Made by a program: the position numbers and the translations under genes. A DNA stretch of 33,078 nt, taken from the NCBI GenBank assembly GCA_028716005.1, contig JAQUQQ010000005.1, positions 1 to 33,078 of the forward strand, written 5' to 3'. This DNA comes from Candidatus Moraniibacteriota bacterium (GTDB lineage Bacteria > Patescibacteriota > Minisyncoccia > Moranbacterales > UBA11712). Below the pieces are notes generated by a model. It searched no databases. It was not told the DNA's origin and saw only the letters and a list, made by a program, of their open reading frames with translations. Positions 2,969 through 23,929 of this stretch are shown piece after piece (the stretch's first letter is position 1; each line of letters starts with the position of its first letter).

Positions 2969-3026
2969 CTTTCTTCTATGAAGAATAAACTGGTTGAAAC
3001 TGAAAAGTATTTATAATTTTTTTTAT

Positions 3027-4106
3027 ATGCTAACCACGAATCGCGCCAAAGAAATCCTGAAGAAAGCCAAAAAATCGCCCGTCCTCGCCTGCGGCGATGT
3101 GATGCTCGACGCTTATCTCACCGGGCCTGTCGAAAGATTTTCCCAGGAAGCTCCGGTTCCCGTGATCCGGGTTGACGATGAACAATTTTTTCCGGGAGGC
3201 GCCGGCAATGCCGCCAGCTGCATGGCTGCCATCGGGCTTGCTCCGCATCTCGTGGGAGTGATCGGAGAAAAAGGACGAATCAAATACGCGGACGTCATGG
3301 AGGAGGAATACAAAAAATGCGGAATAATCACCCATTTTAGTGTCGATCCGAACCGCAAAACCACGCTCAAATTGAGAGTGAAGGCGATAAAAACCACCAC
3401 CCAGCACGTCGCCCGGGTGGATATGGAAGACACCCGCCCCTTGAGTCAGGAAAAAGAAAATGAAATATCGGCATACCTCGAGAGCCTCGCCAAGGAGCTG
3501 AAACCGGCGGCTGTTTCCATTCATGATTACGCGAAAGGTTTTCTCACGGAAAAAGTCTTTCGTAAAACAATCGACATTTCGAGTGAAAAAAATATCCCCG
3601 TTTTTGCCGATCTCAAACAGAACACTTTCGTGAAATATAAAAGCTTCATAAAGAAACCCGAACTTTTTTTTCTGAAGCCCAACCGGGTGGAATCCGCCGA
3701 GACAGCCAAGATCATGGGCGGCTTTGACAAAGACGGCACAACTGACAAGGAAATAATCGAAATCGCCCGCATTATCCAAAAAGAAATCCCGATTCATATT
3801 TTCATAACCAGAGGAAAAAAAGGATCGGTCTATTTCGATCCCGGAAAAGAGCCGTATTTTGTCCGGCCCGAAGAAGTTGAAGAGCAGTTTGACATCGCCG
3901 GAGCCGGAGACACGGTCGCCGCGCTGCTCATCGCCTCGCGCCTCGGCGGCGCGACGATGCCCGAGGCCCTCGAGCTCGCCACTGCCGCTTCACAAGTCGC
4001 CATCCGAAAATTCGGCACATCGGTCGTGACGGAAAATGAATTATTAAATTGGATCGGAGAGCAAACATTCAATGTTGAGGGAACACCAACATCGAATGTT
4101 GAATAA
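3027..4106 (+). CDS. rfaE1: D-glycero-beta-D-manno-heptose-7-phosphate kinase (RfaE1/HldE N-domain type)
   Basis: A PfkB/ribokinase-family sugar kinase. The N-terminal block LACGDVMLDAYLTGPVERFSQEAPVPVIRV is characteristic of RfaE1. PfkB signature 1 is GGAGNAA (residues ~58-64), and signature 2 is DIAGAGDTVAALL (~289), with the catalytic-base Asp in GAGD. The enzyme phosphorylates C1 of D-glycero-D-manno-heptose 7-phosphate for the ADP-heptose pathway. It stands alone, not fused to the adenylyltransferase; the matching nucleotidyltransferase is at 4736. The track start is TTG 2994; I prefer ATG 3027, which gives 359 residues and starts just before the family domain. A TATAAT at 3012-3017 lies so close to this ATG that a near-leaderless transcript is possible. 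The last residues (TFNVEGTPTSNVE) come from a hairpin repeat at the 3' end. Confidence 0.88.
   Translation: MLTTNRAKEILKKAKKSPVLACGDVMLDAYLTGPVERFSQEAPVPVIRVDDEQFFPGGAGNAASCMAAIGLAPHLVGVIGEKGRIKYADVMEEEYKKCGIITHFSVDPNRKTTLKLRVKAIKTTTQHVARVDMEDTRPLSQEKENEISAYLESLAKELKPAAVSIHDYAKGFLTEKVFRKTIDISSEKNIPVFADLKQNTFVKYKSFIKKPELFFLKPNRVESAETAKIMGGFDKDGTTDKEIIEIARIIQKEIPIHIFITRGKKGSVYFDPGKEPYFVRPEEVEEQFDIAGAGDTVAALLIASRLGGATMPEALELATAASQVAIRKFGTSVVTENELLNWIGEQTFNVEGTPTSNVE
4064..4100. repeat. 14-bp-arm hairpin (REP-like) at the 3' end of the kinase gene
   Basis: Arms aacattcaatgttg (4064-4077) and caacatcgaatgtt (4087-4100) are complementary at 13 of 14 positions around a 9-base loop. Each arm is itself nearly palindromic. 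The hairpin overlaps the last coding codons of the kinase, ends just before its TAA stop, and has no T tract, so a repeat insertion is likelier than an intrinsic terminator. Confidence 0.6.
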
Positions 4107-4109
4107 CTT

Positions 4110-4661
4110 ATGAAAAAAATAATCTTTCTCGATCGCGACGGAACAATCAACGTCGACCACAAATACGTCTTTGAAATCGAAAAATTTGAATTCGAAAAAA
4201 ATGTGGTTCCCGCCCTCCAGCTTCTTCGCGATCACAATTTCGAATTCATCATCGTGACAAATCAGTCCGGAATCGGTCGCGGATATTATACCGAGGATGA
4301 CTATCAAAAATTCAACGGTCACGTCGTCGGAGAACTCAAAAAAAACGGCATAAATATCTTGAAATCATATTTTTCCCCTTTTCATCCCGAGGGAATCGGA
4401 AAATACAAAAAAGCTTCCCATTGCCGCAAGCCGGAGCCGGGGATGCTCGAAGAGGCCGAAAAAGATTTTCCCATAGACAATTCGAAATCGTGGATCATCG
4501 GCGACAAATGGGCGGACGTGAAATGCGGAAAAAATTTTGGAATCAAATCAATTCTGGTTCTTCGCGGAAAAGCCGGCGCGGACGAAAAGCACAAAACGGA
4601 CGTGGAATACATCGCCGAAGATCTGCTCGACGCCGCAAAATTCATAATTCAATACAAATGA
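4110..4661 (+). CDS. gmhB: D-glycero-beta-D-manno-heptose-1,7-bisphosphate 7-phosphatase (GmhB-like HAD)
   Basis: A HAD phosphatase of 183 residues, the usual GmhB size. Motif I is FLDRDGTIN (Asp8 nucleophile, Asp10), motif II is TNQSGIGRG, then CRKPEPGM and IGDKWADVKCG for motifs III/IV. It removes the C7 phosphate from heptose 1,7-bisphosphate between the kinase (3027) and the adenylyltransferase (4736), starting 3 bp after the kinase stop. The GmhB zinc loop normally carries C-x-H...C-x-C. Here it reads SPFHPEG...SHCRKP, so only one His and one Cys are kept. The paralogue at 13096 keeps the full set. Activity may therefore be zinc-independent or on a different histidinol-phosphatase-like substrate. 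Confidence 0.85.
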   Translation: MKKIIFLDRDGTINVDHKYVFEIEKFEFEKNVVPALQLLRDHNFEFIIVTNQSGIGRGYYTEDDYQKFNGHVVGELKKNGINILKSYFSPFHPEGIGKYKKASHCRKPEPGMLEEAEKDFPIDNSKSWIIGDKWADVKCGKNFGIKSILVLRGKAGADEKHKTDVEYIAEDLLDAAKFIIQYK

Positions 4662-4669
4662 TTCGTATA

Positions 4670-4730
4670 TTCGTAAATAATTCGCCACCGCCTTGGCGGG
4701 GTCCCGCCCCGGCGGGATAGTTCGTAGATA
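4670..4730. repeat. GC-rich double hairpin flanked by short direct repeats
   Basis: In the gap before rfaE2, two GC-rich palindromes stand back to back: ccgcc-tt-ggcgg (4688-4699) and cccgcc-cc-ggcggg (4703-4716). The sequences on either side, ttcgtaaata (4670-4679) and ttcgtagata (4721-4730), match at 9 of 10 bases like a target duplication. There is no T tract, so it is a BIME/REP-like insertion rather than a plain terminator; it may still affect the mRNA between gmhB and rfaE2. Confidence 0.55.
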
Positions 4731-4735
4731 AATCC

Positions 4736-5221
4736 ATGAACCACAAAGAAAAAATCAAATCACTCGATGAAATTCTCGCAATCGTCAAAAAAGCGAAAGC
4801 CGAAGGCAAAAAAATAGTCACGACGAACGGTTCTTTCGATCTTTTTCACGCCGGCCACATTGATCTTCTCGAAAAAGCCAAAGACAAAGGCGACGTCTTG
4901 ATCGTAGGCGTGAACAGCGACAAATCGGTGAAAGAATACAAAAAAAAGCCGGGCCGGCCGATAATCCCCGATAAATACCGGGCCGAGCTCCTGGCGGCTA
5001 TCATGTATGTCGACTATGTTTTCATTTTCGACGATCTCATTCCCAACCTCTGGCTTGAAAAAATCCGCCCCGACGTCCACGCGAACAGCGCCGAATACGG
5101 CGCCAATTGCGTCGAAACGGAAGTTCTTGACCAATACGGTGGAGAACTTTTTCTTGTTCCTAAAGAAGATATTCCCCTTTCGACCTCCGGCATAGAAGCG
5201 AAAATAAAAGCGGAGAAATAG
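4736..5221 (+). CDS. rfaE2: D-glycero-beta-D-manno-heptose 1-phosphate adenylyltransferase (RfaE2/HldE C-domain type)
   Basis: A cytidylyltransferase-fold nucleotidyltransferase of 161 residues. TTNGSFDLFHAGHIDLLEKAK contains the HxGH nucleotide-binding motif, followed by LIVGVNSDKSVK and GRPIIPDKYRAELLAA, as in RfaE2 proteins. The C-terminal LSTSGI corresponds to the family's STT-like ending. It should transfer AMP from ATP to heptose 1-phosphate, giving ADP-heptose. The usual VKGGDY region is changed to HANSAEY, so a TagD-like (glycerol-3-phosphate) or other pentitol/heptose specificity cannot be excluded, but kinase and GmhB next door favour heptose. It ends only 3 bp before the oppositely oriented phosphoesterase gene, so transcripts must end inside coding sequence. 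Confidence 0.82.
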   Translation: MNHKEKIKSLDEILAIVKKAKAEGKKIVTTNGSFDLFHAGHIDLLEKAKDKGDVLIVGVNSDKSVKEYKKKPGRPIIPDKYRAELLAAIMYVDYVFIFDDLIPNLWLEKIRPDVHANSAEYGANCVETEVLDQYGGELFLVPKEDIPLSTSGIEAKIKAEK

Positions 5222-6150: not shown

Positions 6151-8043
6151 TTATCTCGGATATTTTTTGACCAATTTTTTGAACTTCTCAACCGCCTCTT
6201 CCGGTTTGATTGCGAGCCGGCAGGGGTCTTTTTTCCAGCGCACGGACAAGTCTTTGCAGCCCTCGTCCCAGCAGGGATAGCATTTCAGGCTGGCCAGCGG
6301 TTCGAGAACTTCGTATTTTTCGTAAAAACCAAGTCTTGATTCCGGTTTCACACCGCCCGTGAAAATCGAGAGAAACGGGATTCCCGCCAGCGCCGCGATA
6401 TGGCTCGCGCTTGTGTCGGTCGAGATCACGTATTTTCCAAACTTCAAGGCTTCAATGAATTCAGTGATGGTTTTCGTTTTTCCGACAAGGTTCACGACTT
6501 TTTCACCTTTATAATACTCGCTGTCTTTTGTCCCCAAGATTAGAGGGATAAATCCCATTTTCTCAACCGCTTCGATCAATTTTGGATAATATGGCCCCCA
6601 CCAGCTCCGGGCGGGATTGGAAGCGATGAGGTTGAAAACAACAAACGGCTGGCTCATATTTAAACCCATTTCGAAAAATAATTTCTCTATTTTTTTTCGC
6701 GCTTCAGGATAATCAGGCATCGGAACAAGATCAAATTTTTCGTCTAGCTCCATATTCCGCGCATAAACAAGGTGTCGGTTTATCTTGTTGTCTTCTTTGG
6801 GCGTTCCGGAAATCGGCGTGACGTCCATTTCCAAGTCGATAAAATTATATACTTTCGAATCAGAAGGGATCGGCAGAGGCGCATATTTCTGCCCGTTTGG
6901 AATAGGAACAAATTCATCAAATATACCAAAGCCAGCCATCATTTCGATGTTTCGTTCATATGTCGCGAGAATCAGCTTTTTTCCTGGATATTTTCTGCGC
7001 AAATTCGAGAAGATGCTCATGCCCATCAGAAGATCCCCTATCCCATCGTCGCGGATAACAGTAATGGCATTTTTGTATTCATTTGGGCCAAAGGCGATTC
7101 TTTGTTTTATCTTTGTTGCCAAATCATTTATTTTGTTTCCCCATATCTTTTTGAGCAGCCACCGGTCTTTTTCCCCCTTTCTCCAATCCCTTGAAGAGCC
7201 TTCGAAGTGGAATATCTCTGCTTCTGGATTGTAGAGCACAGAAAATCCACTTTCCGCCAGCCGGAAACAAAAATCAGTATCCTGAGCTTCCTCTCGAAAA
7301 TTCTCATTCATGCGAAACCGATTGAAAACATCATGCCGGATGGCGGCGCACGCAAATGTCACAGCCGGAACAATAGCCTTGATATTCGCTTCAGGGATGT
7401 CGCCCGGCTCATCGCAATAGGTATTTATTCCAGTTTTTGTCGGAGGATTGATTTCAATTCCGGCGTGCTGGATTGTGCCGTTTTTGTGGAGCAACTTTCC
7501 TCCTACGATACCAATTTTTTTGTCTTTTAGGGAATCAGCCAATGCGTCGATCCATCCTTGCTTTACAATCGTATCGTTGTTGAGAAAGACAAGATATTGG
7601 CCCTTGGCATGCCGCCCGAACATTTCGTTGTAGTTCTTTGAAAAAAAATATTTTTTGAGCCATATCACCTGAATATTCTTCCAGTCTTTTCTGGCTTCCT
7701 TATAAAATGAGAGGACATTTTTGTCCGTGCTCCCGGTATCACCAAGCAGTATCTCTATTTTATATTTCGAGCTTAAGTTGTTTTCAATGGATTCCAAACA
7801 GGGTCTGATGAGATCCAAACGATTTTTGGTCAAAATACCGATAGTCACCAGTCCCTTTTCAAAATCATCGCTTCTGGGGTAGTCACTGAAAATTTCTCCC
7901 CGCCTTTTTTTATAATGACGTTTAATGGCAAATATCATACCGCCCCAGGAATTATAATAAAATTCCCAGAACGCCAAACGCCCCAAGCCCCAATATTTTC
8001 CGAAAAATCTTTTTATTCGTCCCTTGATATATCTTTTGTCCAT
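6151..8043 (-). CDS. GT2-GT9 fusion glycosyltransferase (GT9 part heptosyltransferase-like)
   Basis: A 630-residue two-domain protein. Residues ~64-300 are a GT2 GT-A domain: VTIGILTKNRLDLIRPCLESI, GDTGSTDKN, FLNNDTIV in the DxD position, and EEAQDTDFCFRL. Residues ~326-620 are a GT9 GT-B domain: ITVIRDDGIGDLLMG (the N-terminal GD motif of WaaC/WaaF) and STDTSASHIAALAGIP (donor-site motif). A Cys-rich segment CYPCWDEGC...DPC follows near residue 591, like the WaaF tail. GT9 enzymes use ADP-heptose, and ADP-heptose genes lie just upstream on the other strand, which supports heptose transfer. GT2 and GT9 are normally separate proteins, so the fusion could add two consecutive residues. Acceptor unknown. 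Confidence 0.85.
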   Translation of the reverse strand: MDKRYIKGRIKRFFGKYWGLGRLAFWEFYYNSWGGMIFAIKRHYKKRRGEIFSDYPRSDDFEKGLVTIGILTKNRLDLIRPCLESIENNLSSKYKIEILLGDTGSTDKNVLSFYKEARKDWKNIQVIWLKKYFFSKNYNEMFGRHAKGQYLVFLNNDTIVKQGWIDALADSLKDKKIGIVGGKLLHKNGTIQHAGIEINPPTKTGINTYCDEPGDIPEANIKAIVPAVTFACAAIRHDVFNRFRMNENFREEAQDTDFCFRLAESGFSVLYNPEAEIFHFEGSSRDWRKGEKDRWLLKKIWGNKINDLATKIKQRIAFGPNEYKNAITVIRDDGIGDLLMGMSIFSNLRRKYPGKKLILATYERNIEMMAGFGIFDEFVPIPNGQKYAPLPIPSDSKVYNFIDLEMDVTPISGTPKEDNKINRHLVYARNMELDEKFDLVPMPDYPEARKKIEKLFFEMGLNMSQPFVVFNLIASNPARSWWGPYYPKLIEAVEKMGFIPLILGTKDSEYYKGEKVVNLVGKTKTITEFIEALKFGKYVISTDTSASHIAALAGIPFLSIFTGGVKPESRLGFYEKYEVLEPLASLKCYPCWDEGCKDLSVRWKKDPCRLAIKPEEAVEKFKKLVKKYPR

Positions 8044-10596: not shown

Positions 10597-11331
10597 ATGA
10601 AGAAAAAAGACGGCCTGAAACAAATAGTCATCCTGGCCGGCGGGCTGGCCACAAGGCTCCACCCGATCACGATAACAATCCCGAAATCAATGGTTGAAGT
10701 GAACGGCCGGCCGTTTTTTGAATATCAAATCGAACTTTGCAAAAAAAACGGCGTCAAAGAAATCGTGATGTGCGTCGGCCATTTGTGGGAACAGATCAGA
10801 GACTATTTCGGCGACGGAAAAAAATTCGGCGTGAAAATAACCTATTCCGTTGAAAACGAGAAACTGGACACCGGAGGAGCCATTAAGCTCGCGCTCCCCC
10901 ACCTCGACGAAAAATTCTTCGTGATGTATGGAGATTCTTTTTTGGACATAAATTGGAAAAAAATCGCCGAATTTCACGCCAAATCGAAAGCCGATGGTTT
11001 GATGACGGTGTATAAAAACAACTGGAAACTGGAACCCAGCCGGGTTTTGCTTGATGAAAAAGGCTATATAAAAGAATATAACAAGGAAAACCCGCGGCGG
11101 GAGATGAAATATATGGAATACGGCTTGAATATTTTGCCGAAAAAAATTATTGGCCAGGTGCGGGAAAAATCATTCCCCATCAGCCGTTATTTTGATATTT
11201 TGATGAAAAAAGGACATCTGGTTTCTTTTGAGTCAAAAAAAAGGTTCTATGAGATAGGATGCCATGACGGACTTGGCACTTGTGAAGCTCATATTTCCCA
11301 AAAACCCAAGAAAAAAAAAGAAAAACCATAA
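10597..11331 (+). CDS. hddC: Sugar-1-phosphate nucleotidyltransferase (HddC/LmbO-type, probably guanylyltransferase)
   Basis: A 244-residue single-domain NTP transferase. The signature LAGGLATRLHPITITIPKSMVEVNGRPFFEYQI contains the G-G-x-x-T-R-L phosphate loop and the PKSM lysine. LDTGGAIKLALPHL and the metal-binding MYGDSFLDINW follow. This short form matches HddC (D-glycero-alpha-D-manno-heptose 1-phosphate guanylyltransferase) and related hexose-1-phosphate transferases; LmbO of the octose pathway is in the same family. The nucleotide (GTP, CTP, dTTP) cannot be read from the sequence. It precedes the kinase-isomerase-phosphatase-transaldolase operon on the same strand. Unlike those genes it has no SD and is rich in AAA-Lys runs, so it looks native. 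Confidence 0.78.
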   Translation: MKKKDGLKQIVILAGGLATRLHPITITIPKSMVEVNGRPFFEYQIELCKKNGVKEIVMCVGHLWEQIRDYFGDGKKFGVKITYSVENEKLDTGGAIKLALPHLDEKFFVMYGDSFLDINWKKIAEFHAKSKADGLMTVYKNNWKLEPSRVLLDEKGYIKEYNKENPRREMKYMEYGLNILPKKIIGQVREKSFPISRYFDILMKKGHLVSFESKKRFYEIGCHDGLGTCEAHISQKPKKKKEKP

Positions 11332-11357
11332 TCCGCGACAATAATCGCGGATTCTTT
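11330..11357 (+). terminator. Stem-loop after the nucleotidyltransferase gene
   Basis: aatccgcg (11330-11337) and cgcggatt (11346-11353) form a perfect 8-bp stem with an 8-base loop, overlapping the last bases of the stop codon. The T tract is short (ctttg), so termination may be partial. A TTGACA (11356-11361) follows at once, but no good -10 sits at the right spacing from it. Confidence 0.55.
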
Positions 11358-11447
11358 GACAAAAATACCGGAATATGCCAATTTTAGGCTATTGGAGGGG
11401 CTGAAAAGCTCCTTAAAAAATATCCAAAATTAACCAAATCTCTGTTC

Positions 11448-11453
11448 AGGAGG
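11448..11453 (+). promoter_or_regulatory. Shine-Dalgarno site of the GHMP kinase gene
   Basis: A full AGGAGG stands 8 bases before ATG 11462. It is the strongest ribosome-binding site in the window and opens the four-gene block. Confidence 0.8.
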
Positions 11454-11461
11454 ACCGACTT

Positions 11462-12487
11462 ATGTTTCGCATGGCTTTGGGAAAGGTTCCTCTCCGGCTC
11501 TCCATGGGCGGAGGCGGAACGGATATCGCGTCTTTCTACAAGCTGAAAGGCGGTTTTTGGACTTCAGCAGCCATGTCGCTTTATGTCCGCATCACTATCA
11601 ATTGCCGTTGGGACAATCTCTGGGTCGTCAAATTTTCAGACAGAACCCAGAGAGTCACCGACATTTCTGAAATCCAACACCCGATCCTCCGGGAATCTCT
11701 GAAATTTATGAAAGCCCCGGATTGGCTGAAAGGCAAAGGCCTCGAGATGAACATCATTTCCGATGTCCCAAGCAAGTCTGGCCTGGGCGTCTCGGGCGCC
11801 ATAACTGTCAACCTCCTTCAAATTCTTCACACCATGAAAGGCGATGGGTTTTCCCTCCAGCAACTGGCGGAAGAAGCCTATCACGTGGAGCACGATCTTT
11901 GCGGCTCCAGCGCGACCGGGAAACAGGACCAATACATCGCCGCGATCGGGGGAATTACCTCTTTTGAAGTTACCCGAAGCGGCCATGTGGATGTTCTCTC
12001 TCTGAACCTGGAAAGCCGCACCCGCCTGGAACTCAACGAAAATCTGGTTCTTTTCGGGACCGGGACTATTCGGGAAAAGACCGCCGAAGAAACCTTGAAG
12101 GAACAAGGTTTGGCCGAACAAAAGCTTTCCCGAGAAAAGGTCGCTTATTTTGAGCGCATCAAAGAAATCGGCCTCGCGCAACGCGAAGCCATGCTGTCCG
12201 GAAAAATCCGCCGGTTTGGCGAGCTCCTCGACGAGCACTGGAAAGTCAAAAAATCCTATTCCAATCACACTGCCAACTCCGCCATCGACGACATTTACGA
12301 AGTCGCGAAGCAGGCGGGGGCCATTGGCGGGAAAGTGGTCGGGGCCGGCACAGTCGGCGCTTTCTGGCTTTTTTACGTCGAAGCCGACAAAAAATCGGCC
12401 CTGCGGGACGCCATGGCGGCCTATAACCTTCAGGAAGTTCCCTGGTCCTTCGTGGACCACGGGTCAATGATTTCCTACTGCGAATGA
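11462..12487 (+). CDS. hddA: GHMP sugar kinase (HddA/LmbP-like, heptose- or octose-phosphate C1 kinase)
   Basis: A 341-residue GHMP kinase. Motif 1 is VPLRLSMGGGGTDIASF, motif 2 is DVPSKSGLGVSGAITVNLL (phosphate loop), then GKQDQYIAAIGGI, and motif 3 is GGKVVGAGTVGAFWLFY. PLRLSxGGGGTD and GKQDQYxAAxGG are shared by HddA (D-glycero-alpha-D-manno-heptose 7-phosphate kinase) and by LmbP, which phosphorylates octose 8-phosphate in lincosamide biosynthesis. It should put an alpha-phosphate on C1 of a sugar phosphate. It is first of four tightly spaced genes; the next gene starts 12 bp later. The block is GC-rich with strong SD sites, unlike most neighbours. Sugar length (C7 or C8) is open. Confidence 0.8.
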   Translation: MFRMALGKVPLRLSMGGGGTDIASFYKLKGGFWTSAAMSLYVRITINCRWDNLWVVKFSDRTQRVTDISEIQHPILRESLKFMKAPDWLKGKGLEMNIISDVPSKSGLGVSGAITVNLLQILHTMKGDGFSLQQLAEEAYHVEHDLCGSSATGKQDQYIAAIGGITSFEVTRSGHVDVLSLNLESRTRLELNENLVLFGTGTIREKTAEETLKEQGLAEQKLSREKVAYFERIKEIGLAQREAMLSGKIRRFGELLDEHWKVKKSYSNHTANSAIDDIYEVAKQAGAIGGKVVGAGTVGAFWLFYVEADKKSALRDAMAAYNLQEVPWSFVDHGSMISYCE

Positions 12488-12499
12488 GGGGGTGAAAAC

Positions 12500-13114
12500 A
12501 TGAAGGAAGCGACACTGGAACTTTTTTTCAAAGGCCGGCTCATGGAAATGGGCCAAATCGCCAAAGAACTGGCAGGCCAGATCGGAATTCTCGAAAAAAT
12601 GGCAGAAATCCTCGAGGAAGCCCGCCACTACGGCCATCGCCTTTTCTTCTGCGGAGTCGGTGGCGGCGCCGGAAACGGCACCCATGCCGCCGGCGACCTT
12701 TTCAAGAGTTGCCGGATCAAGGCGGCTTGCCTCACCGACAACGTTCCCACCGTCACGGCCATCACCAACGACGAAGGCTGGTCCCGGGTCTTTGTGGACC
12801 AGCTGGATATCTTGGGCTTCGGTCCGGATGACGTCCTGTTCGTCTTTTCGGTCGGCGGAGGAGACGCTGAACGGAACATTTCCGCGAACATCGTGGAAGC
12901 GGTCAAATACGCCAAAGAAAAAGGCGCTCATGTCCTGGGCGTGGTCGGAAAAGCAGACGGCTATACCGCCCGAAACGGCGACGCCGTCATTGTGGTGCCG
13001 ACCGTCAATCCGGACTACCGCACTACCCACACCGAATCCCTGCAGGGCTATATCGCCCATCTTCTGACCGAGGTCCTGCGCCAGAGGAGCGCCAAATGGG
13101 AATCGGTCACCTAG
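12500..13114 (+). CDS. SIS-domain sugar phosphate isomerase (GmhA/LmbN-like)
   Basis: A 204-residue SIS protein. FFCGVGGGAGNGTHAAGDLF is the phosphosugar-binding loop in the GmhA layout, followed by DVLFVFSVGGGDAERNISANIVEAVKYAKEKGAHVLGVVGKADG. Overall length and helix-first arrangement match phosphoheptose isomerase, which converts sedoheptulose 7-phosphate to the aldose; LmbN carries the same domain and converts octulose 8-phosphate. Against E. coli GmhA as I remember it, the active-site His61 is kept, Glu65 appears as Asp, and the C-terminal catalytic His is not obvious, so the substrate may differ. The start has SD-like GAGGGGGTG. The last 19 bp overlap the phosphatase gene. It is the only GmhA-type isomerase in the window. 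Confidence 0.75.
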   Translation: MKEATLELFFKGRLMEMGQIAKELAGQIGILEKMAEILEEARHYGHRLFFCGVGGGAGNGTHAAGDLFKSCRIKAACLTDNVPTVTAITNDEGWSRVFVDQLDILGFGPDDVLFVFSVGGGDAERNISANIVEAVKYAKEKGAHVLGVVGKADGYTARNGDAVIVVPTVNPDYRTTHTESLQGYIAHLLTEVLRQRSAKWESVT

Positions 13115-13707
13115 GGCCTCCAAAAGCGGTTTTTCTCGATCGGGACGGAGTGATTAATCCCCCCGTCGGACTCGACGAGTTCGGCGGAACGGAAAGCCCG
13201 CTCCGTTTCGAGGATTTCCAAATTTTTCCCTGGACGGCCGAGGCCATCAAAATTCTCAACAGCCTCGGCTTCTATGTCTTTATTGTCACCAACCAACCGG
13301 CGGTCGCCAAAGGCAAAATGAACCATCTGGAACTGGAGAATATGCATTTTCACCTGATTTATTGGGTTCGCAGCGTGGGCGGCATCATCGACAAAATCTA
13401 TGCCTGCCTGCACCATCCGGATCCAAAGCAGGTGAAAATTCCGGCCCTCCTCGCCGACTGCGACTGCCGGAAACCCAAACCGGGAATGTTGCTGCAAGCC
13501 GCCCAGGAATTCGGGATTGATCTCCAAAAATCCTGGCTGGTCGGCGACACCTGGAAAGACGTCCAAGCCGGCCAAGCCGCCGGCTGCCGGACGATTCTCA
13601 TCCGAAACGAAGTTGACAACCGCGGCAAAACCATCAACCCCGACTTCACCGCAGAAAACCTGCTTGAAGCGGCTCACATCATCGAACGGGAGGAAAACAC
13701 CCCATGA
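13096..13707 (+). CDS. GmhB-type HAD phosphatase (sugar bisphosphate phosphatase, complete zinc loop)
   Basis: A 203-residue HAD phosphatase. Motif I is FLDRDGVIN (Asp15, Asp17), motif II VTNQPAVAKG, then CRKPKPGM and VGDTWKDVQAGQAAG. The zinc loop is intact: CLHHP (Cys ~104 and a His) pairs with ADCDCRKP (two Cys, ~121-123), with a loop a little longer than usual. It should remove the distal phosphate from a heptose 1,7- or octose 1,8-bisphosphate made by the kinase at 11462; LmbK does the octose reaction. The ATG lies inside the isomerase gene behind AGAGGAG with a 6-base gap, so translation is coupled. Its stop overlaps the transaldolase ATG (ATGA). It is the second GmhB homologue here. 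Confidence 0.83.
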   Translation: MGIGHLGPPKAVFLDRDGVINPPVGLDEFGGTESPLRFEDFQIFPWTAEAIKILNSLGFYVFIVTNQPAVAKGKMNHLELENMHFHLIYWVRSVGGIIDKIYACLHHPDPKQVKIPALLADCDCRKPKPGMLLQAAQEFGIDLQKSWLVGDTWKDVQAGQAAGCRTILIRNEVDNRGKTINPDFTAENLLEAAHIIEREENTP

Positions 13708-14438
13708 AAGAACCCCTGAAAGACGGGCTCTTGTTTCTCGACACGGCCGACCTAGGCGTGATCGAGAAGTATATGAAGCTCGGCTTCGTCGACGGCGTCA
13801 CCACCAACCCCACCATAATGAAAAAGTGCGGGGTCACCGGCGGTTTCGCGGTCATCCGCGACTATTCCAAGCAAATCGCGAAACTCATTGATCCCCTGCC
13901 CTTGTCCCTCGAGACCTCGAGTCCTGATGGGAATGAGCTGGAAATTCTGGAACAGGCCCGCGAGTTCGCCACCTGGGGCTCCAATGTCAACGTCAAAGTG
14001 ACGATCACCGACCAGAACGGCAAACCTTTCCTCGGCGTCATCAAGCAATTGGCCAAAGAAGGCATCAAAGTGAACGCCACTGCCATGATGAACGCGGCCC
14101 AAGGCCTCCTGGCCGCCAAAGTCGGCGCCAAGTATGTTTCCATCTTCCTGGGCCGGGTCGCCAATATGCAGTTCGACCCCGTTCCCGTCACGGAAGAGCT
14201 CCGCTATATGCTGGACCGCACCGGCTTGGAAGCCCAGATCATCGCCGCCTCAAGCCGCGAATCCTACAATGTCCTGCAGTGGTGGAAAGCCGGCGCCCAC
14301 ATCATCACCGTGACACCCGACCTCGTCAAATTTTGCATCCAACACCCCTACACCGCAGACACCGTGAAGCTCTTTGACGGCGACGCCGCCGACTGGCTCC
14401 CGGGCTGGAAGGAGTGGAAAGCCAACCATGGCAAATAA
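13704..14438 (+). CDS. Transaldolase (short FSA/TalC-like class)
   Basis: A 244-residue class I aldolase-fold transaldolase. DGVTTNPTIMKK (30-41) is the family signature, and SNVNVKVTIT holds the Schiff-base lysine (Lys98). NATAMMNAAQGLLAAKVGAKYVSIFLGRV, TEIIAASSR-like LEAQIIAASSRES and HIITVTPDLV complete the barrel. It transfers or cleaves a dihydroxyacetone unit of a ketose phosphate. Cotranslation with kinase, isomerase and phosphatase (ATGA overlap) says it makes the committed ketose phosphate of this pathway: sedoheptulose 7-phosphate, or octulose 8-phosphate as LmbR does from ribose 5-phosphate. A housekeeping pentose-phosphate role is possible but would not explain the position. Codon use is GC-rich. 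Confidence 0.87.
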   Translation: MKEPLKDGLLFLDTADLGVIEKYMKLGFVDGVTTNPTIMKKCGVTGGFAVIRDYSKQIAKLIDPLPLSLETSSPDGNELEILEQAREFATWGSNVNVKVTITDQNGKPFLGVIKQLAKEGIKVNATAMMNAAQGLLAAKVGAKYVSIFLGRVANMQFDPVPVTEELRYMLDRTGLEAQIIAASSRESYNVLQWWKAGAHIITVTPDLVKFCIQHPYTADTVKLFDGDAADWLPGWKEWKANHGK

Positions 14439-14463: not shown

Positions 14464-14542
14464 AAAGGATTAAGCGAACCTTGTAAATTTTGCCCCGAAG
14501 GGGTAAAATAAAAAACAAGGAACGCTTAATCCTTTTTCTTTT
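14464..14542 (+). terminator. Three-tier hairpin terminator at the end of the kinase-transaldolase operon
   Basis: Three nested stems share one axis. Outer: aaaggattaagcg (14464-14476) with cgcttaatccttt (14523-14535), 13 bp perfect. Middle: ccttgt (14479-14484) with acaagg (14515-14520). Inner: attttgcccc (14487-14496) with ggggtaaaat (14500-14509), one G-U pair and a gaa loop. It runs into TTTTTCTTTT. This is far longer than an ordinary terminator, and it marks the end of the GC-rich block. Confidence 0.85.
14481..14509 (+). promoter_or_regulatory. Candidate sigma70 promoter embedded in the three-tier hairpin
   Basis: TTGTAA (14481-14486; 4 of 6) is followed after exactly 17 bases by TAAAAT (14504-14509; 5 of 6). 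Initiation near 14516 would give a short leader of roughly 35 bases before ATG 14553. Such RNA would lack the upstream arms of the hairpin and so escape the terminator. It would drive the long downstream operon. Confidence 0.45.
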
Positions 14543-14552
14543 GTTTTGATTT

Positions 14553-15497
14553 ATGAAAATTCTTGTGACAGGCGGAGCGGGATTTATTGGTTCTCATTTG
14601 GTAGATCACTTGCTTAGGGAAGGCCACGAAGTGAAAGTCTATGACAATTTGAGCGGCGGGAACCGCGATTTTCTGAAACACCACGAAAAGAACAAACGCT
14701 TCGCTTTTGTGAAAGCCGATTTGGCTGACCGAAAAACTCTCCGAAAGGAATCAAAAAAAATCGAAATGGTTTTTCACCTCGCCGCCAACTCCGACATTTC
14801 GAAAGGCATCTCCGACCCAAGCCTCGATTTCGAACAGACAACACATCACACTTTCAACCTTCTCCAGGCAATGAAAGAAAACGGCGTAAAAAAGATTTTT
14901 TTCACCTCCGGAAGCGGCATTTATGGCGATGTGGGATCAACTTATACCAAAGAAAATTTCGGCCCGCTTATCCCCGTTTCGATGTATGGCGCGACCAAGC
15001 TTTCCGCCGAAGCCATGATATTCGCTTTTTCCAATTTTTTTGATATTCAGGTCTGGGTTCTGCGCCCGGCCAACATCATCGGCCCGCGGCTCACGCACGG
15101 CGTGGTTTTTGATTTTGTCAAAAGACTCAAAAAAGATTCGAAAAAACTTCAAATTCTCGGGGACGGAAGGCAAAGCAAATCATACCTTTATGTTTTGGAT
15201 GTCATCCGCGCCATCGACCTTGTCACGAAAAAAGCCAAGCAAAAAATAAACATTTTCAATATTGCCTCAAACAGCTTCATCACGGTGAATTCCATCGCGG
15301 ATGTGATCACCAAAGAAATGAACATCAATCCGAAACGAAGCTGGACCGGCGGAAAAATCGGCTGGAAGGGCGACGTGGCGAAAGTGAGAATAAATAATTC
15401 CAAAATTACGAAGCTTGGCTGGAAGCCAAAATACAATTCCCGCCAAGCCGTCCAAAAAACCGTCCGGGTGGTTTTGGGAAAAGACGCAAAATTCTAG
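14553..15497 (+). CDS. NAD-dependent nucleotide-sugar epimerase/dehydratase (extended SDR)
   Basis: A 314-residue extended SDR. The Rossmann site is GGAGFIG (7-13), the Ser/Thr block SGSGIYGDV, and the catalytic pair YGATK. LRPANIIGPRLTHGVVFDF and GDGRQSKSYLYVLDV complete the family pattern. It belongs to the GalE/UDP-glucuronate-epimerase-like branch and acts on a nucleotide sugar in the cytoplasm. As the first gene after the higher-sugar operon it may process that product at C4, as LmbM does in the octose pathway; this is inference. The ATG comes directly after the T tract of the terminator and has no SD. Confidence 0.82.
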   Translation: MKILVTGGAGFIGSHLVDHLLREGHEVKVYDNLSGGNRDFLKHHEKNKRFAFVKADLADRKTLRKESKKIEMVFHLAANSDISKGISDPSLDFEQTTHHTFNLLQAMKENGVKKIFFTSGSGIYGDVGSTYTKENFGPLIPVSMYGATKLSAEAMIFAFSNFFDIQVWVLRPANIIGPRLTHGVVFDFVKRLKKDSKKLQILGDGRQSKSYLYVLDVIRAIDLVTKKAKQKINIFNIASNSFITVNSIADVITKEMNINPKRSWTGGKIGWKGDVAKVRINNSKITKLGWKPKYNSRQAVQKTVRVVLGKDAKF

Positions 15498-15509
15498 AAT
15501 TATCTACCA

Positions 15510-16655
15510 ATGAATAAAAAAATTACAATTGTCATCCCCTGCCTCAACGAAGGAAAAGTGATCGGCGAAGTCATCCGAGACAGCTGGATCGGCCTCGGAA
15601 ACGACAAAATCAACAATCAAGTCTTGATTATCGACAGCGGCACGGATGATTCGGAAGAAATCGCGAAAAGCCTGGGCGCTGATGTTTTGAAAACCCCGAA
15701 AAGAGGCCTTGGCCGCGCTTATATAGACGCTATTCCTCATATAAAAGGAGATTACGTTGTCATGGGCGATGCCGACGGGACTTATGATTTCAAGGAAACT
15801 CCCAATTTCACAAAAAAATTGGACGAGGGTTATGAATATGTGATGGGAACTCGCACGAAGGGCTGGATTGAAAAAGGATCCCGGCCTCCCCTTCACCGCT
15901 TCTTTGGCGCGCCGGTCACGAACTGGATTTTCAATCTCGTCTACGGAAGCAATTTTTCCGACATCCACTGCGGCATGCGAGCCATGACGAAAGTCGCGCT
16001 CGTGAAAATGAAACTGAAATCTCAATCATGGCAATACGCCTCAGAAATGATAATCAAAGCCATGCAACTGGGACTCAAAACAACCGAAGTGCCGATCCGA
16101 TTCTACAAAGACAAGCACGGACGAATCCCCCATCTCCGCCAGGGATGGCTCACGCCCTGGAAAGCCGGCTGGATCAGCCTCCAAATGATGTTCACCCACC
16201 GCGCGGATTTTTTTCTTTTCCGGCCGGGAATATTGTTGCTTTTTCTTGGGTTATTGGCTGTTGTTTCCTTGTCTTTCGGCCCTGTTTATATATTCTCAAT
16301 TCATTTTATGCTCCTGGGAATGACTCTGACAATTTTGGGGGCCGTCAGTATCTTTATGGGATTGGTCGCCAAAGCCATATATGACCCGTCGGGGAAGAAA
16401 ATGAAAAAATATATGAAATTCTTTCAATACAACAAATCTTTCCTCGCGAGTTTGGTCTTGATTATAATTGGAATATTTTTCACCCTTCCCCTAGTCAGCG
16501 ACTTCATTTCTTTCGGCTACAATCTGTCATCCGGCCTGCAGGACAAATATTATCTAAGCGTCACCGGCTTGACGCTGATAATCATCGCGTTCGTCAATTT
16601 CACATTCACCCTTCTGCTGCATTCACTTTCCGAAAGGCTGCAGGAAAATCAATAA
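15510..16655 (+). CDS. Polyprenyl-phosphate GT2 with C-terminal membrane domain
   Basis: A 381-residue protein. Residues 1-~225 are a GT2 GT-A domain: TIVIPCLNEGKVIGEVI, IIDSGTDDSEE, RGLGRAYIDAI, the metal-binding VMGDADGTYDF and SDIHCGMRAM. About four hydrophobic helices follow between residues ~237 and 372. This layout is that of membrane-anchored dolichol/polyprenyl-phosphate sugar synthases found in archaea and many bacteria. It makes the lipid-linked sugar donor used by GT-C enzymes outside the membrane, such as the one at 18517. It begins 12 bp after the epimerase gene and is part of the long operon. Sugar identity unknown. Confidence 0.88.
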   Translation: MNKKITIVIPCLNEGKVIGEVIRDSWIGLGNDKINNQVLIIDSGTDDSEEIAKSLGADVLKTPKRGLGRAYIDAIPHIKGDYVVMGDADGTYDFKETPNFTKKLDEGYEYVMGTRTKGWIEKGSRPPLHRFFGAPVTNWIFNLVYGSNFSDIHCGMRAMTKVALVKMKLKSQSWQYASEMIIKAMQLGLKTTEVPIRFYKDKHGRIPHLRQGWLTPWKAGWISLQMMFTHRADFFLFRPGILLLFLGLLAVVSLSFGPVYIFSIHFMLLGMTLTILGAVSIFMGLVAKAIYDPSGKKMKKYMKFFQYNKSFLASLVLIIIGIFFTLPLVSDFISFGYNLSSGLQDKYYLSVTGLTLIIIAFVNFTFTLLLHSLSERLQENQ

Positions 16656-20204: not shown

Positions 20205-21011
20205 ATGTCCGAAAAAATACCCCCCAAAAAAAACTTGAGCAAAATAAAAAATGAATGCGCGCTCACGATGCTGGGTCTTTACAAAAAAGTTCAGGCCGGG
20301 CATATCGGATCTTCTTTGTCTTGTCTGGATATTCTGGTCTATTTATATTTTTGGCGAATGACATCAGAAGATAAATTTATATTGTCCAAAGGACACGCTG
20401 CGGCAGCCCTTTATACAGTTTTGGAGAAAGCGGGGTTTATTTCCAAAGATGAGCTGAATTCCTACTATCAAAACGGCACTCTTCTGGCGGCCCATCCACC
20501 CTGCTGCGGAAAATTGAACGGCATCACGTTCGGAACAGGAAGCCTGGGACACGGCCTTTCCCTGGCAACCGGACTCGCCCTGTCAACGAAATTCACGAAG
20601 AAAAAGATGGACGTCTATTGCGTTATATCCGACGGAGATATCAATGAGGGATCGACTTGGGAAGCGATTTTGTTTGCCGGCCATCACAAATTGAAAAATC
20701 TCACCGTGATCGTCGACAATAACTGCATCCAAGCTTTCGGATTTTCAAAAGATATCCTTGACATGGATCCTCTGCAAAAAAAATTCAAGGATTTCAATTT
20801 TGAAGTCGTCGAGGTCAAAAATGGAAATGATTTTCAAGAACTGGAAAAAGCCTTCAAAAAATTGGATGTCAAGAAATCCGAAAAGCCCAGATGCATCATC
20901 GCGAAAACCACGAAAGGAAGCGGAGTGTCATACATGGAAAACAAAATGGAATGGCACTATCTCCCCATGGATGATGAGCAATACAATTTGGCCATAAGCC
21001 AATTTCAATAA
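20205..21011 (+). CDS. Transketolase, N-terminal (thiamine-diphosphate PP domain) subunit
   Basis: A 268-residue protein equal to the first third of transketolase. GHIGSSLSCLDILVYLYF and DKFILSKGHAAAALYTVL are the substrate-side motifs. GSLGHGLSLATGLAL and SDGDINEGSTWEAILFAGHHKLKNLTVIVDNN form the ThDP/Mg site (GDG...N, from ~143). It works only together with the C-terminal subunit encoded 4 bp downstream. The pair moves two-carbon ketol units and can make sedoheptulose 7-phosphate from xylulose and ribose 5-phosphates. Split transketolases are common in archaea and some bacteria. Its place inside a glycan operon suggests supply of the higher sugar, not central metabolism. Alternative: a dedicated ketol transfer for branched sugars. 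Confidence 0.9.
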   Translation: MSEKIPPKKNLSKIKNECALTMLGLYKKVQAGHIGSSLSCLDILVYLYFWRMTSEDKFILSKGHAAAALYTVLEKAGFISKDELNSYYQNGTLLAAHPPCCGKLNGITFGTGSLGHGLSLATGLALSTKFTKKKMDVYCVISDGDINEGSTWEAILFAGHHKLKNLTVIVDNNCIQAFGFSKDILDMDPLQKKFKDFNFEVVEVKNGNDFQELEKAFKKLDVKKSEKPRCIIAKTTKGSGVSYMENKMEWHYLPMDDEQYNLAISQFQ

Positions 21012-21015
21012 AATT

Positions 21016-21927
21016 ATGCGCAACGAATTTTGCAAAACAATCGAAAATATAGCCGTTGAAAACGAAAAAGTTGTTTTTATGACCGGGGATCTCGGTTTTA
21101 TGGCTCTTGAGGGAATTCAGAAAGCCATCGGGGACAGATTCATCAATGCGGGCGTAAGCGAACAAAATATGCTGACCATGGCCGCCAGTATCGCGTCAGA
21201 GGGCTTTACTGTTCTGTGTTATAGTATCGCCCCTTTCGTCGTTTTCAGACCCGCGGAACAAATTCGCCTCGATGTTTGCCTCCATGACATGGATGTAAAA
21301 ATAATCGGCAATGGCGGCGGCTATGGATATGGAATCATGGGAGGCACTCATCACGCCATTGAAGACATCGCCGTTCTTTCATCTTTTCAAAACATGAAAT
21401 GCTATATCCCCTTCTGCGCCGAAGAAGTGAGGGAAATAACGACAAAAATGATGAATCACCGGGGGCCTGCCTATATAAGGCTCGAGAAAGGAGCAAAACC
21501 GGAAAACCTTGAGCTTTCGAAATATAAGCCTGTTCGAAAAATAATGGATGGGGAAAAAATTACAATCGTATCTTTGGGCACCACAACTCTCAACGCGCTG
21601 GAAGCGCTGAAATCTTTTGACAATCGAGTGGCTGACTTGTTCGTAGTCTCCGAGATGCCCATGTCTGAACTGTCCCCTGAGTTGGCAAAAAGCATAAAAA
21701 AGACAGGCAAACTGATCGTTCTCGAAGAACACGTCAGCCGAGGCGGACTCGCTGAAAACTTGTCGCTTCTATTGATTGAAAATAAAATTTTCCCCGGAAA
21801 TTTTTCCCATCACTTCGCAACCGGATACCCGGACGGACTTTATGGAGACCAGAAATATCATCAAAAACTGAACGGGCTCGATCCGGATTCCATCACCCAT
21901 AATATAAAAAAATTTCTAAATGAATAA
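21016..21927 (+). CDS. Transketolase, C-terminal (Pyr plus C-domain) subunit
   Basis: A 303-residue protein with the pyrimidine-binding and C-terminal transketolase domains. FMTGDLGF opens the domain, NAGVSEQNMLTMAASIASEG carries the conserved Glu (Glu49) that activates thiamine diphosphate, and GGGYGYGIMGGTHHAIEDIAVL holds substrate-site residues. The C-terminal domain has LIVLEEHVSRGGLAENL. Length is right for this subunit and no key motif is missing. It starts 4 bp after the N subunit and its last 8 bp overlap the epimerase-GT2 gene, so it is firmly part of the glycan operon. Confidence 0.9.
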   Translation: MRNEFCKTIENIAVENEKVVFMTGDLGFMALEGIQKAIGDRFINAGVSEQNMLTMAASIASEGFTVLCYSIAPFVVFRPAEQIRLDVCLHDMDVKIIGNGGGYGYGIMGGTHHAIEDIAVLSSFQNMKCYIPFCAEEVREITTKMMNHRGPAYIRLEKGAKPENLELSKYKPVRKIMDGEKITIVSLGTTTLNALEALKSFDNRVADLFVVSEMPMSELSPELAKSIKKTGKLIVLEEHVSRGGLAENLSLLLIENKIFPGNFSHHFATGYPDGLYGDQKYHQKLNGLDPDSITHNIKKFLNE

Positions 21928-23929
21928 GGACGCTTTATATTCCCACAATTGGAATGAAAAAGAAATCGAGGAAGCCAAAAAACTTATCGGGCCAATTTTG
22001 ATTGTGGGAGCTTCGGGCTTTATCGGGTCAAAATTTTTTTTCAATCTTTCCCGATACAGAGATGATGTCTATGCCTGTTCAAGAAACGCCAAACAAAGCT
22101 GGAGGTTGAGCGCCGCCGAATCATCGCGCCTTATCAATCTTGATATATTGAACTTTGACAGTTTGAAAAATGCGATTGGCCGATTGAAACCGCAAACTAT
22201 TTTCAACTTATCCGCCTATGGAGCGTATTCCAGGCAGACTGACACGGAAAAAATTCACCAAACAAATTATATCGGAACTCTCAACCTAATCCGCGCTTTG
22301 ATGGAAACCGGATGCAGCGCCTTTGTTCAGGCAGGGACATCTTCCGAATATGGATTGAATTGCGCTGGGCCGGATGAAAATGACACCTTGTCTCCCAACA
22401 GCGACTATGCCGTTTCCAAAGTCGGAGCTTCGTATTTGGTAAAATACTACGGAACAATTTTGAATTTTCCTTGTGTCAATTTGAGGCTTTATTCCGTCTA
22501 TGGCCCTTGGGAAGAAAGAGACCGGTTGATTCCCACTCTCATATCGAACGGCCTACAGGGCAAATATCCAAATTTAGTAAACAAGGATATCTCCAGAGAT
22601 TTTGTATATGTTGACGATTGCTTGAACGCGTTTGTGAAAGCAGCTCTAAACGCGTGTAAAACAAATCCGGGAATTTCCCTGAATATCGCTTCAGGGATAA
22701 AAACGACTCTCGAAAACGTCGCGAAAACGGCTCAAAAAATATTCGGCATCCAGAACGAACCGGTTTTCGGATCCATGGCAAACCGAAAATGGGATTTGGT
22801 GGATTGGTATGGAAATCCCGACTTTGCTGAAAAAATAATGGGATGGAAATACAAAACAAGTTTTGAAGAGGGATTGAGATCAAATGTCGAATGGGAAAAG
22901 GTCGCCGCCGAGAAACTGAAACATGTCTACATTCCCTCAAAGAACAAGATGGTTTCGGCGATTGTTGCCTGCTACAAAGATAATCTTTCCATTCCCATAC
23001 TTCACAAACGACTGACTGAAGCATTCACAAAAACCGGTTATGATTATGAAATTATATTTGTGAATGACGCAAGTCCCAATAACGACGAAGAAGTCATTGC
23101 AAATTTGTGCGCTGGAGACAGTCATGTTATCGGAATTTCGCATTCAAGGAATTTCGGGTCCCAATCGGCTTTTTTGAGCGGAATGGAAATATCTTCCGGG
23201 GACGCGGTTGTTTTCATGGATGGCGACGGACAGGACCCTCCGGAAATTATTCCCAAATTTATCAAAAAATGGGAAGAAGGATATGATATTGTTTATGGGA
23301 AAAGAGTCAAAAGAGAGGCTCCGTTTTATATGCAAATATTCTATAAACTATTTTATAGAATTTTCAAAAAATTATCTGATATAAAAATACCTGTTGATGC
23401 CGGTGACTTTTCTCTCGTCGACAGAAAAGCGTCAGAATACTTGATGAAATTTACCGAAAAAGACGTTTTTCTGCGGGGTCTCCGCGCCTGGGTTGGATTC
23501 AAGCAGACGGGAGTTTCATACTTGCGGCCCGAACGCTTGTTTGGAAAAAGCACCAATAATTTCTGGAAAAATATCTGGTGGGCGAAAAAAGGTATTTTTT
23601 CTTTCAGTACAAAACCGCTGCAATATATTCAATCAATCGGAGTTTTCGTTTTTTTGGTGACGGTGGGATTGGGCGTATTTTATTTGGTTGATTATTTCCT
23701 TCATCCCCCGACGGACGCGCGCGGCATTACGACAATAATTCTTCTTGTTCTTGGCATAGGCAGTATTCAGCTCATTTCGACGAGTATACTAGGAGACTAT
23801 ATTGGAAAAATTACCGAGGAAGTGAAAAGCAGGCCCAGATTTATTCGAAATAAAATTCTTTATAATGGCAAAATTTATTCGAGTTCTGAAGATATTTCAA
23901 AGCTAATCAATGAAATAAAAAGTATTTAA
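21920..23929 (+). CDS. Epimerase-GT2 fusion protein with membrane anchor
   Basis: A 669-residue fusion. Residues ~28-335 are an extended SDR: ILIVGASGFIGSKF, TSSEYG, SDYAVSK (YxxxK) and LYSVYGPWEERDRLIPTLI, closest in style to CDP/dTDP-sugar epimerase-dehydratases. Residues ~344-565 are a GT2: VSAIVACYKDNLSIPIL, IIFVNDASPNNDEE, RNFGSQSAFLSGM, MDGDGQDPPE (DxD) and DAGDFSLVDRK. Two membrane helices follow (~573-630), as in GtrB/ArnC polyprenyl-phosphate glycosyltransferases. Both halves look complete and in one frame. The fusion could remodel a nucleotide sugar and load it onto the lipid carrier. GtrA at 24660 is the natural flippase partner of a GtrB-like half. The ATG overlaps the transketolase gene by 8 bp. 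Confidence 0.87.
   Translation: MNKDALYSHNWNEKEIEEAKKLIGPILIVGASGFIGSKFFFNLSRYRDDVYACSRNAKQSWRLSAAESSRLINLDILNFDSLKNAIGRLKPQTIFNLSAYGAYSRQTDTEKIHQTNYIGTLNLIRALMETGCSAFVQAGTSSEYGLNCAGPDENDTLSPNSDYAVSKVGASYLVKYYGTILNFPCVNLRLYSVYGPWEERDRLIPTLISNGLQGKYPNLVNKDISRDFVYVDDCLNAFVKAALNACKTNPGISLNIASGIKTTLENVAKTAQKIFGIQNEPVFGSMANRKWDLVDWYGNPDFAEKIMGWKYKTSFEEGLRSNVEWEKVAAEKLKHVYIPSKNKMVSAIVACYKDNLSIPILHKRLTEAFTKTGYDYEIIFVNDASPNNDEEVIANLCAGDSHVIGISHSRNFGSQSAFLSGMEISSGDAVVFMDGDGQDPPEIIPKFIKKWEEGYDIVYGKRVKREAPFYMQIFYKLFYRIFKKLSDIKIPVDAGDFSLVDRKASEYLMKFTEKDVFLRGLRAWVGFKQTGVSYLRPERLFGKSTNNFWKNIWWAKKGIFSFSTKPLQYIQSIGVFVFLVTVGLGVFYLVDYFLHPPTDARGITTIILLVLGIGSIQLISTSILGDYIGKITEEVKSRPRFIRNKILYNGKIYSSSEDISKLINEIKSI

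Follow-up and report, generated by a model that had tools for sequence, protein, structure and literature searches.

A transaldolase-containing gene cassette in the surface-glycan locus of a Moranbacteria-like Patescibacterium as a probable nucleotide-octose pathway

The closest described gene set is that of the lincosamide amino-octose pathway (lmb). LmbR is a transaldolase that joins ribose 5-phosphate to three carbons donated by fructose 6-phosphate or sedoheptulose 7-phosphate (PMC5854111; PMC7014725), LmbN is the octulose 8-phosphate isomerase (PMC4351081), and LmbP, LmbK and LmbO are the C8 kinase, phosphatase and guanylyltransferase, respectively (PMC4351081, PMC12945683). The guanosine diphosphate (GDP)-octose is converted to GDP-lincosamide by LmbM, LmbL, CcbZ and CcbS (PMC4351081, PMC12945683), and the genes are arranged in the order lmbRSOPZNML (PMC7014725). 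Two heptose routes employ similar enzymes, the GDP-D-glycero-alpha-D-manno-heptose pathway (GmhA, HddA, GmhB, HddC) and the adenosine diphosphate (ADP)-heptose pathway (GmhA, HldE, GmhB). The window analysed here is one whole contig of 33,078 nucleotides (JAQUQQ010000005.1) from a 1.06-Mb assembly (86% complete) of a Moranbacteria-like Patescibacterium. Five genes within its surface-glycan locus (10597-14438), termed the cassette, encode all five classes of LmbR, LmbN, LmbP, LmbK and LmbO together, and genes of the LmbM and LmbZ classes follow. This class-by-class match to lmb, minus the aminotransferase, therefore favoured a nucleoside diphosphate (NDP)-octose pathway as the probable function of the cassette. 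Pathways of this kind are known for two antibiotics; a role in a glycan locus or in phages was not found described in the open-access literature, where nothing on this gene set appeared under octoses in O-antigens, bradyrhizose biosynthesis or phage octose genes.

The five open reading frames reported in a preliminary description of this DNA were confirmed in position and class by profile matches, as follows.

10597..11331, + strand: nucleotidyltransferase, HddC/MurU-like, for sugar 1-phosphates (LmbO class); NTP_transferase match with E = 7e-25, top NCBIfam models HddC (115 bits) and MurU (113 bits), nearest relatives the same-operon nucleotidyltransferases of other genomes
11462..12487, + strand: HddA-like GHMP sugar kinase (LmbP class); HddA model 138 bits, E = 4e-40, and tree
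12500..13114, + strand: SIS protein of the octulose-phosphate-isomerase type (LmbN isomerase-domain class); invariant H62, D66, E179 and H187, 6-residue phosphate-loop insertion
13096..13707, + strand: GmhB-like HAD-IIIA phosphatase (LmbK class); profile match, 138 bits
13704..14438, + strand: transaldolase (LmbR class), the sole TAL_FSA gene of the assembly; E = 1e-40, Lys98, Glu70 and Phe148

The tight coupling of four of the five adjacent genes was also borne out. The kinase and SIS genes were separated by a 12-bp gap, followed by overlaps of 19 bp (SIS and HAD) and 4 bp (HAD and transaldolase), and all four genes had strong Shine-Dalgarno sites. The G+C (GC) content at third codon positions of these four genes was 0.64–0.78, compared with 0.498 ± 0.061 (maximum 0.574) for the remaining genes of the window. 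The last four cassette genes form one compositionally distinct operon, and the nucleotidyltransferase gene, of ordinary GC content, lies 130 bp upstream of it.

In order to follow the cassette in other cellular genomes, species genomes were scanned with a five-sequence SIS alignment, which gave at least 442 confirmed relatives, and the loci of the best 80 were analysed. These 80 relatives spanned 18 named phyla, archaea included, and a transaldolase was present in at least one locus in 17 of the 18. No actinomycete occurred among the best 80 of the at least 442 relatives. When the 49 cellular loci with at least 3 kb of flank on each side were considered, 43 had a transaldolase within 4.5 kb of the SIS gene and on the same strand. 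With the genes coded as E (epimerase), X (NDP-sugar dehydrogenase), D (short-chain dehydrogenase, SDR), G (Gfo/Idh), A (GHMP kinase), C (nucleotidyltransferase), S (SIS), B (HAD) and T (transaldolase), the order S-B-T was found in 44 of the best 80 loci, A-C-S-B-T in 33, and the full E-X-D-G-A-C-S-B-T in 13; many loci without the full order were cut by contig ends. Of the 80 loci, 26 had the NDP-sugar dehydrogenase (LmbL class) that belongs to the wider operon. The LmbM-like epimerase and LmbZ-like Gfo/Idh/MocA classes, placed downstream of the cassette in the preliminary description, were found there and in the wider operon as well, and the best matches of the epimerase, Gfo/Idh and SDR proteins of the window among the fetched loci were operon members. 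The HAD and transaldolase genes were fused in loci L020, L028 and L160, and the nucleotidyltransferase and SIS genes in L023, L027 and L029; these fusions agree with a tie between the predicted pathway steps. Because the same set recurs in many phyla and in viral contigs, the linkage of the five genes is not due to chance.

A plasmid search gave SIS relatives with 45–47% identity in Rhizobium jaguaris, Rhizobium sp. CB3060 and Lawsonia intracellularis. Each of these three blocks contained the kinase, nucleotidyltransferase, HAD, transaldolase, Gfo/Idh, SDR, epimerase and NDP-sugar dehydrogenase. Plasmid 3 of L. intracellularis (L015, 6716-23283) carried the whole pathway, and plasmid 1 (L099) carried a cluster with a heptose-type kinase. 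A plasmid transaldolase of Streptomyces sp. 3211 (L109) was checked as a candidate lincosamide-like cluster and is not one. Locus L019 contained, besides its cassette HAD, a second GmhB-like HAD (6723-7382) upstream of the nucleotidyltransferase, with 49% identity to that of the window.

The SIS alignment also matched 217 IMG/VR contigs. In the 47 viral contigs analysed, all with enough flank, the kinase was present in all 47, the transaldolase in 46, the HAD in 44, and a CTP_transf-like nucleotidyltransferase (n) in 41. The gene order was n-S-B-T-x-A in 39 of the 47, where x was a glycosyltransferase in L124, the contig checked. The cassette of L124 (7579-11840) was flanked by ribonucleotide reductase and T4-type RNase H/exonuclease genes, and that of L147 (6908-11787) by endonuclease V and PhoH genes; contigs of this type look like real genomes of uncultured T4-like phages. 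Contigs L154, L160 and L191, which carried the cellular-type operon, may be prophages or misassigned. The cassette SIS was not found in isolate phages (50,697 records), isolate cyanophages included. As a control, a search with canonical GmhA gave 71 viral loci, none of which had a transaldolase, including none of the 40 loci of at least 9.5 kb. The difference between 46 of 47 and 0 of 40 viral loci corresponded to a Fisher p of 4e-24, for loci that are not independent of one another. Many of the control loci had a kinase, isomerase and nucleotidyltransferase only. A viral three-gene n-A-S cassette (nucleotidyltransferase, kinase and GmhA; L252-L274), often with an epimerase and without a transaldolase, is probably a phage heptose route.

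In the phylogenetic trees, the SIS clade stood apart (support 99, with long-branch warnings) from GmhA, DiaA and the SIS proteins of R. leguminosarum and the hygromycin B cluster. Residues H62, D66, E179 and H187 were invariant in 44 SIS members and aligned with H61, E65, Q172 and H180 of GmhA, respectively. The clade was further marked by the 6-residue insertion in the phosphate loop (SVGGGxxExxIS compared with STSGNS). The SIS protein at 12500 is not GmhA: it scored 59 bits against the gmhA model TIGR00441 (cut-off 209), fell in the separate clade and carried the insertion. The cassette kinases were likewise apart from the sampled GmhA-linked kinases; the hygromycin kinase was the nearest reference to the cellular cassette kinases, and the phage kinases formed a clade of their own. 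Two transaldolase clades shared the slot: most operons had a Staphylococcus-type enzyme, and the other clade was that of the window, L018, L019, L031, L039, L041, L069 and L095. Both clades had the Glu and Phe residues diagnostic of transaldolases. E. coli FsaA has Gln and Tyr at the positions of Glu70 and Phe148; judged by these residues, the active site of the protein at 13704 is of the transaldolase type and not of the fructose-6-phosphate-aldolase type. The AlphaFold models of the SIS protein and transaldolase were confident, with predicted local distance difference test values of 91.5 and 94.1, respectively, and their nearest folds were GmhA for the former and Thermoplasma, Thermotoga and Bacillus transaldolases for the latter.

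In the proposed pathway, ribose 5-phosphate would be extended by the transaldolase to octulose 8-phosphate, with fructose 6-phosphate or sedoheptulose 7-phosphate donating the three carbons, and the SIS isomerase would convert the octulose 8-phosphate to octose 8-phosphate. The GHMP kinase would then phosphorylate C1, the HAD phosphatase would remove the terminal phosphate, and the nucleotidyltransferase would attach the nucleotide, probably GDP. The sugar would be adjusted by the epimerase at 14553 and probably also by the Gfo/Idh (16677) and SDR (17702) proteins, and would be placed in the surface glycan by the neighbouring glycosyltransferases. The chain length of eight carbons, nucleotide carrier, substrates, step order and incorporation into a glycan are what we infer. 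The recurrent ordered operon, the linkage of transaldolase and SIS, the restriction of TAL_FSA to genomes with the cassette, the two isomerases of genome G002 described below, the fusions, the two transaldolase clades in one slot, the active-site residues and the folds were counted in favour of an octose and make it the likely product. It is slightly better than an even guess that the surface glycans of bacteria and of some archaea commonly contain an undescribed sugar made by an octose-nucleotide pathway, which uncultured T4-like phages have in turn acquired; the phages would combine the same transaldolase-SIS-HAD-kinase core with another nucleotidyltransferase and a glycosyltransferase of their own and use the product on DNA, the virion or the host surface. 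The preliminary description spoke of this bacterium alone; the cassette is present there, but the scope was too narrow, as the pathway is widespread and occurs in phages.

Several observations weigh against an octose product. Transaldolases and SIS isomerases can be substrate-tolerant, and another sugar phosphate could be the acceptor, giving a C7 or C9 product. The H-D-E-H metal site was considered as an octose-specific feature and rejected, as it recurs in SIS proteins from R. leguminosarum and the hygromycin B cluster. The trees were built with references other than Lmb or Ccb sequences, and the octose is predicted from gene content. The window has no NDP-sugar dehydrogenase (LmbL class), unlike lmb and the wider operon, and its Gfo/Idh and SDR proteins are just ~30% identical to operon members. 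Finally, with no canonical GmhA beside the ADP-heptose genes of the window, the SIS protein at 12500 could serve that route too.

These ADP-heptose genes, on which the preliminary description was silent, form a second set at 2994-5221, with an HldE1-like kinase (2994), GmhB (4110) and an HldE2-like nucleotidyltransferase (4736). In two genomes of the same genus, G001 and the nearest relative G002, a canonical GmhA is located between the epimerase and the HldE1 kinase; it was absent from this usual place in the window (2968-3027), and the rest of the assembly likewise showed none, so that HldE1, GmhB and HldE2 stand without their isomerase. The canonical GmhA may lie in the missing part of the assembly, or the cassette SIS may serve both routes. 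This absence is one of the points in favour of a GDP-heptose route with its own source, in which the transaldolase would make sedoheptulose 7-phosphate from fructose 6-phosphate and erythrose 4-phosphate, and the other four proteins would be divergent GmhA, HddA, GmhB and HddC. The profiles of the kinase, phosphatase and nucleotidyltransferase, which are closest to HddA, GmhB and HddC, and the isomerase fold nearest to GmhA are also consistent with it. However, G002 has the full cassette besides its canonical GmhA, that is, both isomerases, with 72–87% identity to the window over the nucleotidyltransferase, kinase, SIS, HAD and transaldolase, whereas G001, G004 and G006 have GmhA and HldE1 without the cassette. 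Among 29 related genomes, TAL_FSA was confined to the two that carry the cassette. As the ADP-heptose genes of relatives stand without any transaldolase and TAL_FSA occurs only with the cassette, the alternative of a heptose supplied with its own sedoheptulose 7-phosphate is less well supported. Moreover, no transaldolase was found beside canonical GmhA in the viral control or in three heptose-type clusters, and the cassette isomerase and kinase are separate from the heptose references. The GDP-heptose route is thus considered unlikely. The preliminary description had offered both sugars; its octose stood up to each test applied and gained from the position of the isomerase and kinase outside the sampled heptose references, from a transaldolase that is not a housekeeping enzyme in this lineage, and from the eight lmb classes, while its heptose lost ground.

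The enzyme classes fix the chemistry and not the acceptor, and the C3 unit might be added to a different aldose phosphate before the same four activation steps; with a hexose phosphate, for instance, a nonulose would result, and with arabinose 5-phosphate a different epimer of the octulose. The two transaldolase clades and two nucleotidyltransferase classes mean that products may differ among clades. As lmb, the only characterised set so composed, makes C8 from ribose 5-phosphate (PMC5854111; PMC7014725), such another chain length or configuration appears rather improbable. The transaldolase could also be a gene of the pentose phosphate pathway that is in the glycan locus by chance, being the only TAL_FSA of the assembly and having a split transketolase downstream (20205-21927). 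This explanation has already been largely refuted by the 27 of 29 related genomes without TAL_FSA, the co-linkage across many phyla and phages, the translational overlap and the HAD-transaldolase fusions, and it retains very little credibility.

The remaining features around the cassette are as follows.

11330..11353, + strand: perfect 9-bp hairpin directly 3' of the nucleotidyltransferase stop codon, terminator-like with a weak T tail, parting this gene from the four-gene operon
14464..14535, + strand: inverted repeat of 21 bp, 90% paired, with a T-rich stretch after it, 3' of the transaldolase
14553..15497, + strand: NDP-sugar epimerase of the extended SDR class (LmbM class), adjoining the cassette in the nearest relatives too (90% identity in L018, 77% in L019)
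15510..16655, + strand: family 2 glycosyltransferase after the epimerase, likewise in L018 and L019
16677..17705, + strand: Gfo/Idh/MocA oxidoreductase (LmbZ class), matched best in the fetched loci by members of the operon, ~25–33% identity
17702..18490, + strand: SDR; top matches among the fetched loci are the operon SDR, 30–34% identity

The inverted repeat likely ends the transcription unit. The structure closest to the epimerase was PDB 8rdg, for which no describing paper was found in the open-access literature. The split transketolase consists of a thiamine-binding half of 268 residues and a half of 303 residues with the pyrimidine-binding and C-terminal parts, and could supply sugar phosphates to the pathway. 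It is followed by an epimerase-glycosyltransferase fusion (21920-23929). A foreign origin of the cassette was not accepted on GC content alone, since L018 and, less markedly, L019 share the high GC content and strong Shine-Dalgarno sites; the expression level could contribute. The sporadic presence of the cassette, whose SIS was found in just two genomes out of 131 in the order, is a better argument for transfer than GC content.

If the octose assignment is correct, the lincosamide amino-octose pathway would be no antibiotic oddity but a single branch of a sugar-nucleotide pathway of wide distribution. Culturable operon carriers, such as Rhizobium, Bradyrhizobium, Yersinia alsatica and Polynucleobacter, would then be the organisms in whose glycans to seek eight-carbon sugars. 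It would also follow that an SIS protein of this clade adjoining a transaldolase should not be annotated as a heptose isomerase, and the form carried by phages points to a glycan modification made by the phage.

When the cassette was compared with known systems, the cyanophage TalC was found to be a phage-borne TAL_FSA member too, but of another branch, with ~32% identity to the phage-cassette transaldolase; TalC is described as an auxiliary gene of the pentose phosphate pathway (PMC9599517). The ADP-heptose pathway shares the SIS isomerase and GmhB-like HAD steps with the cassette, whereas its kinase is of the pfkB type, its nucleotidyltransferase is CTP_transf-like, and it has no transaldolase. 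The GDP-heptose pathway has the same isomerase-kinase-phosphatase-nucleotidyltransferase logic, with homologous families. However, it has no transaldolase, and the cassette isomerase and kinase fall in separate clades with profile scores far under the heptose equivalog cut-offs. The transaldolase is nearly fixed in the cassette operon and absent from the control heptose loci and the three heptose-type clusters. The wider operon has eight lmb sugar gene classes (M, L, Z, P, O, N, K and R), a likeness judged by gene class. Unlike lmb, it is located in a surface-glycan locus, contains an extra SDR, and has no aminotransferase (LmbS) class in the conserved block. By class, the glycan operon reads M-L-SDR-Z-P-O-N-K-R, and lmbRSOPZNML reversed reads L-M-N-Z-P-O-S-R; the order common to both is Gfo/Idh-kinase-nucleotidyltransferase.

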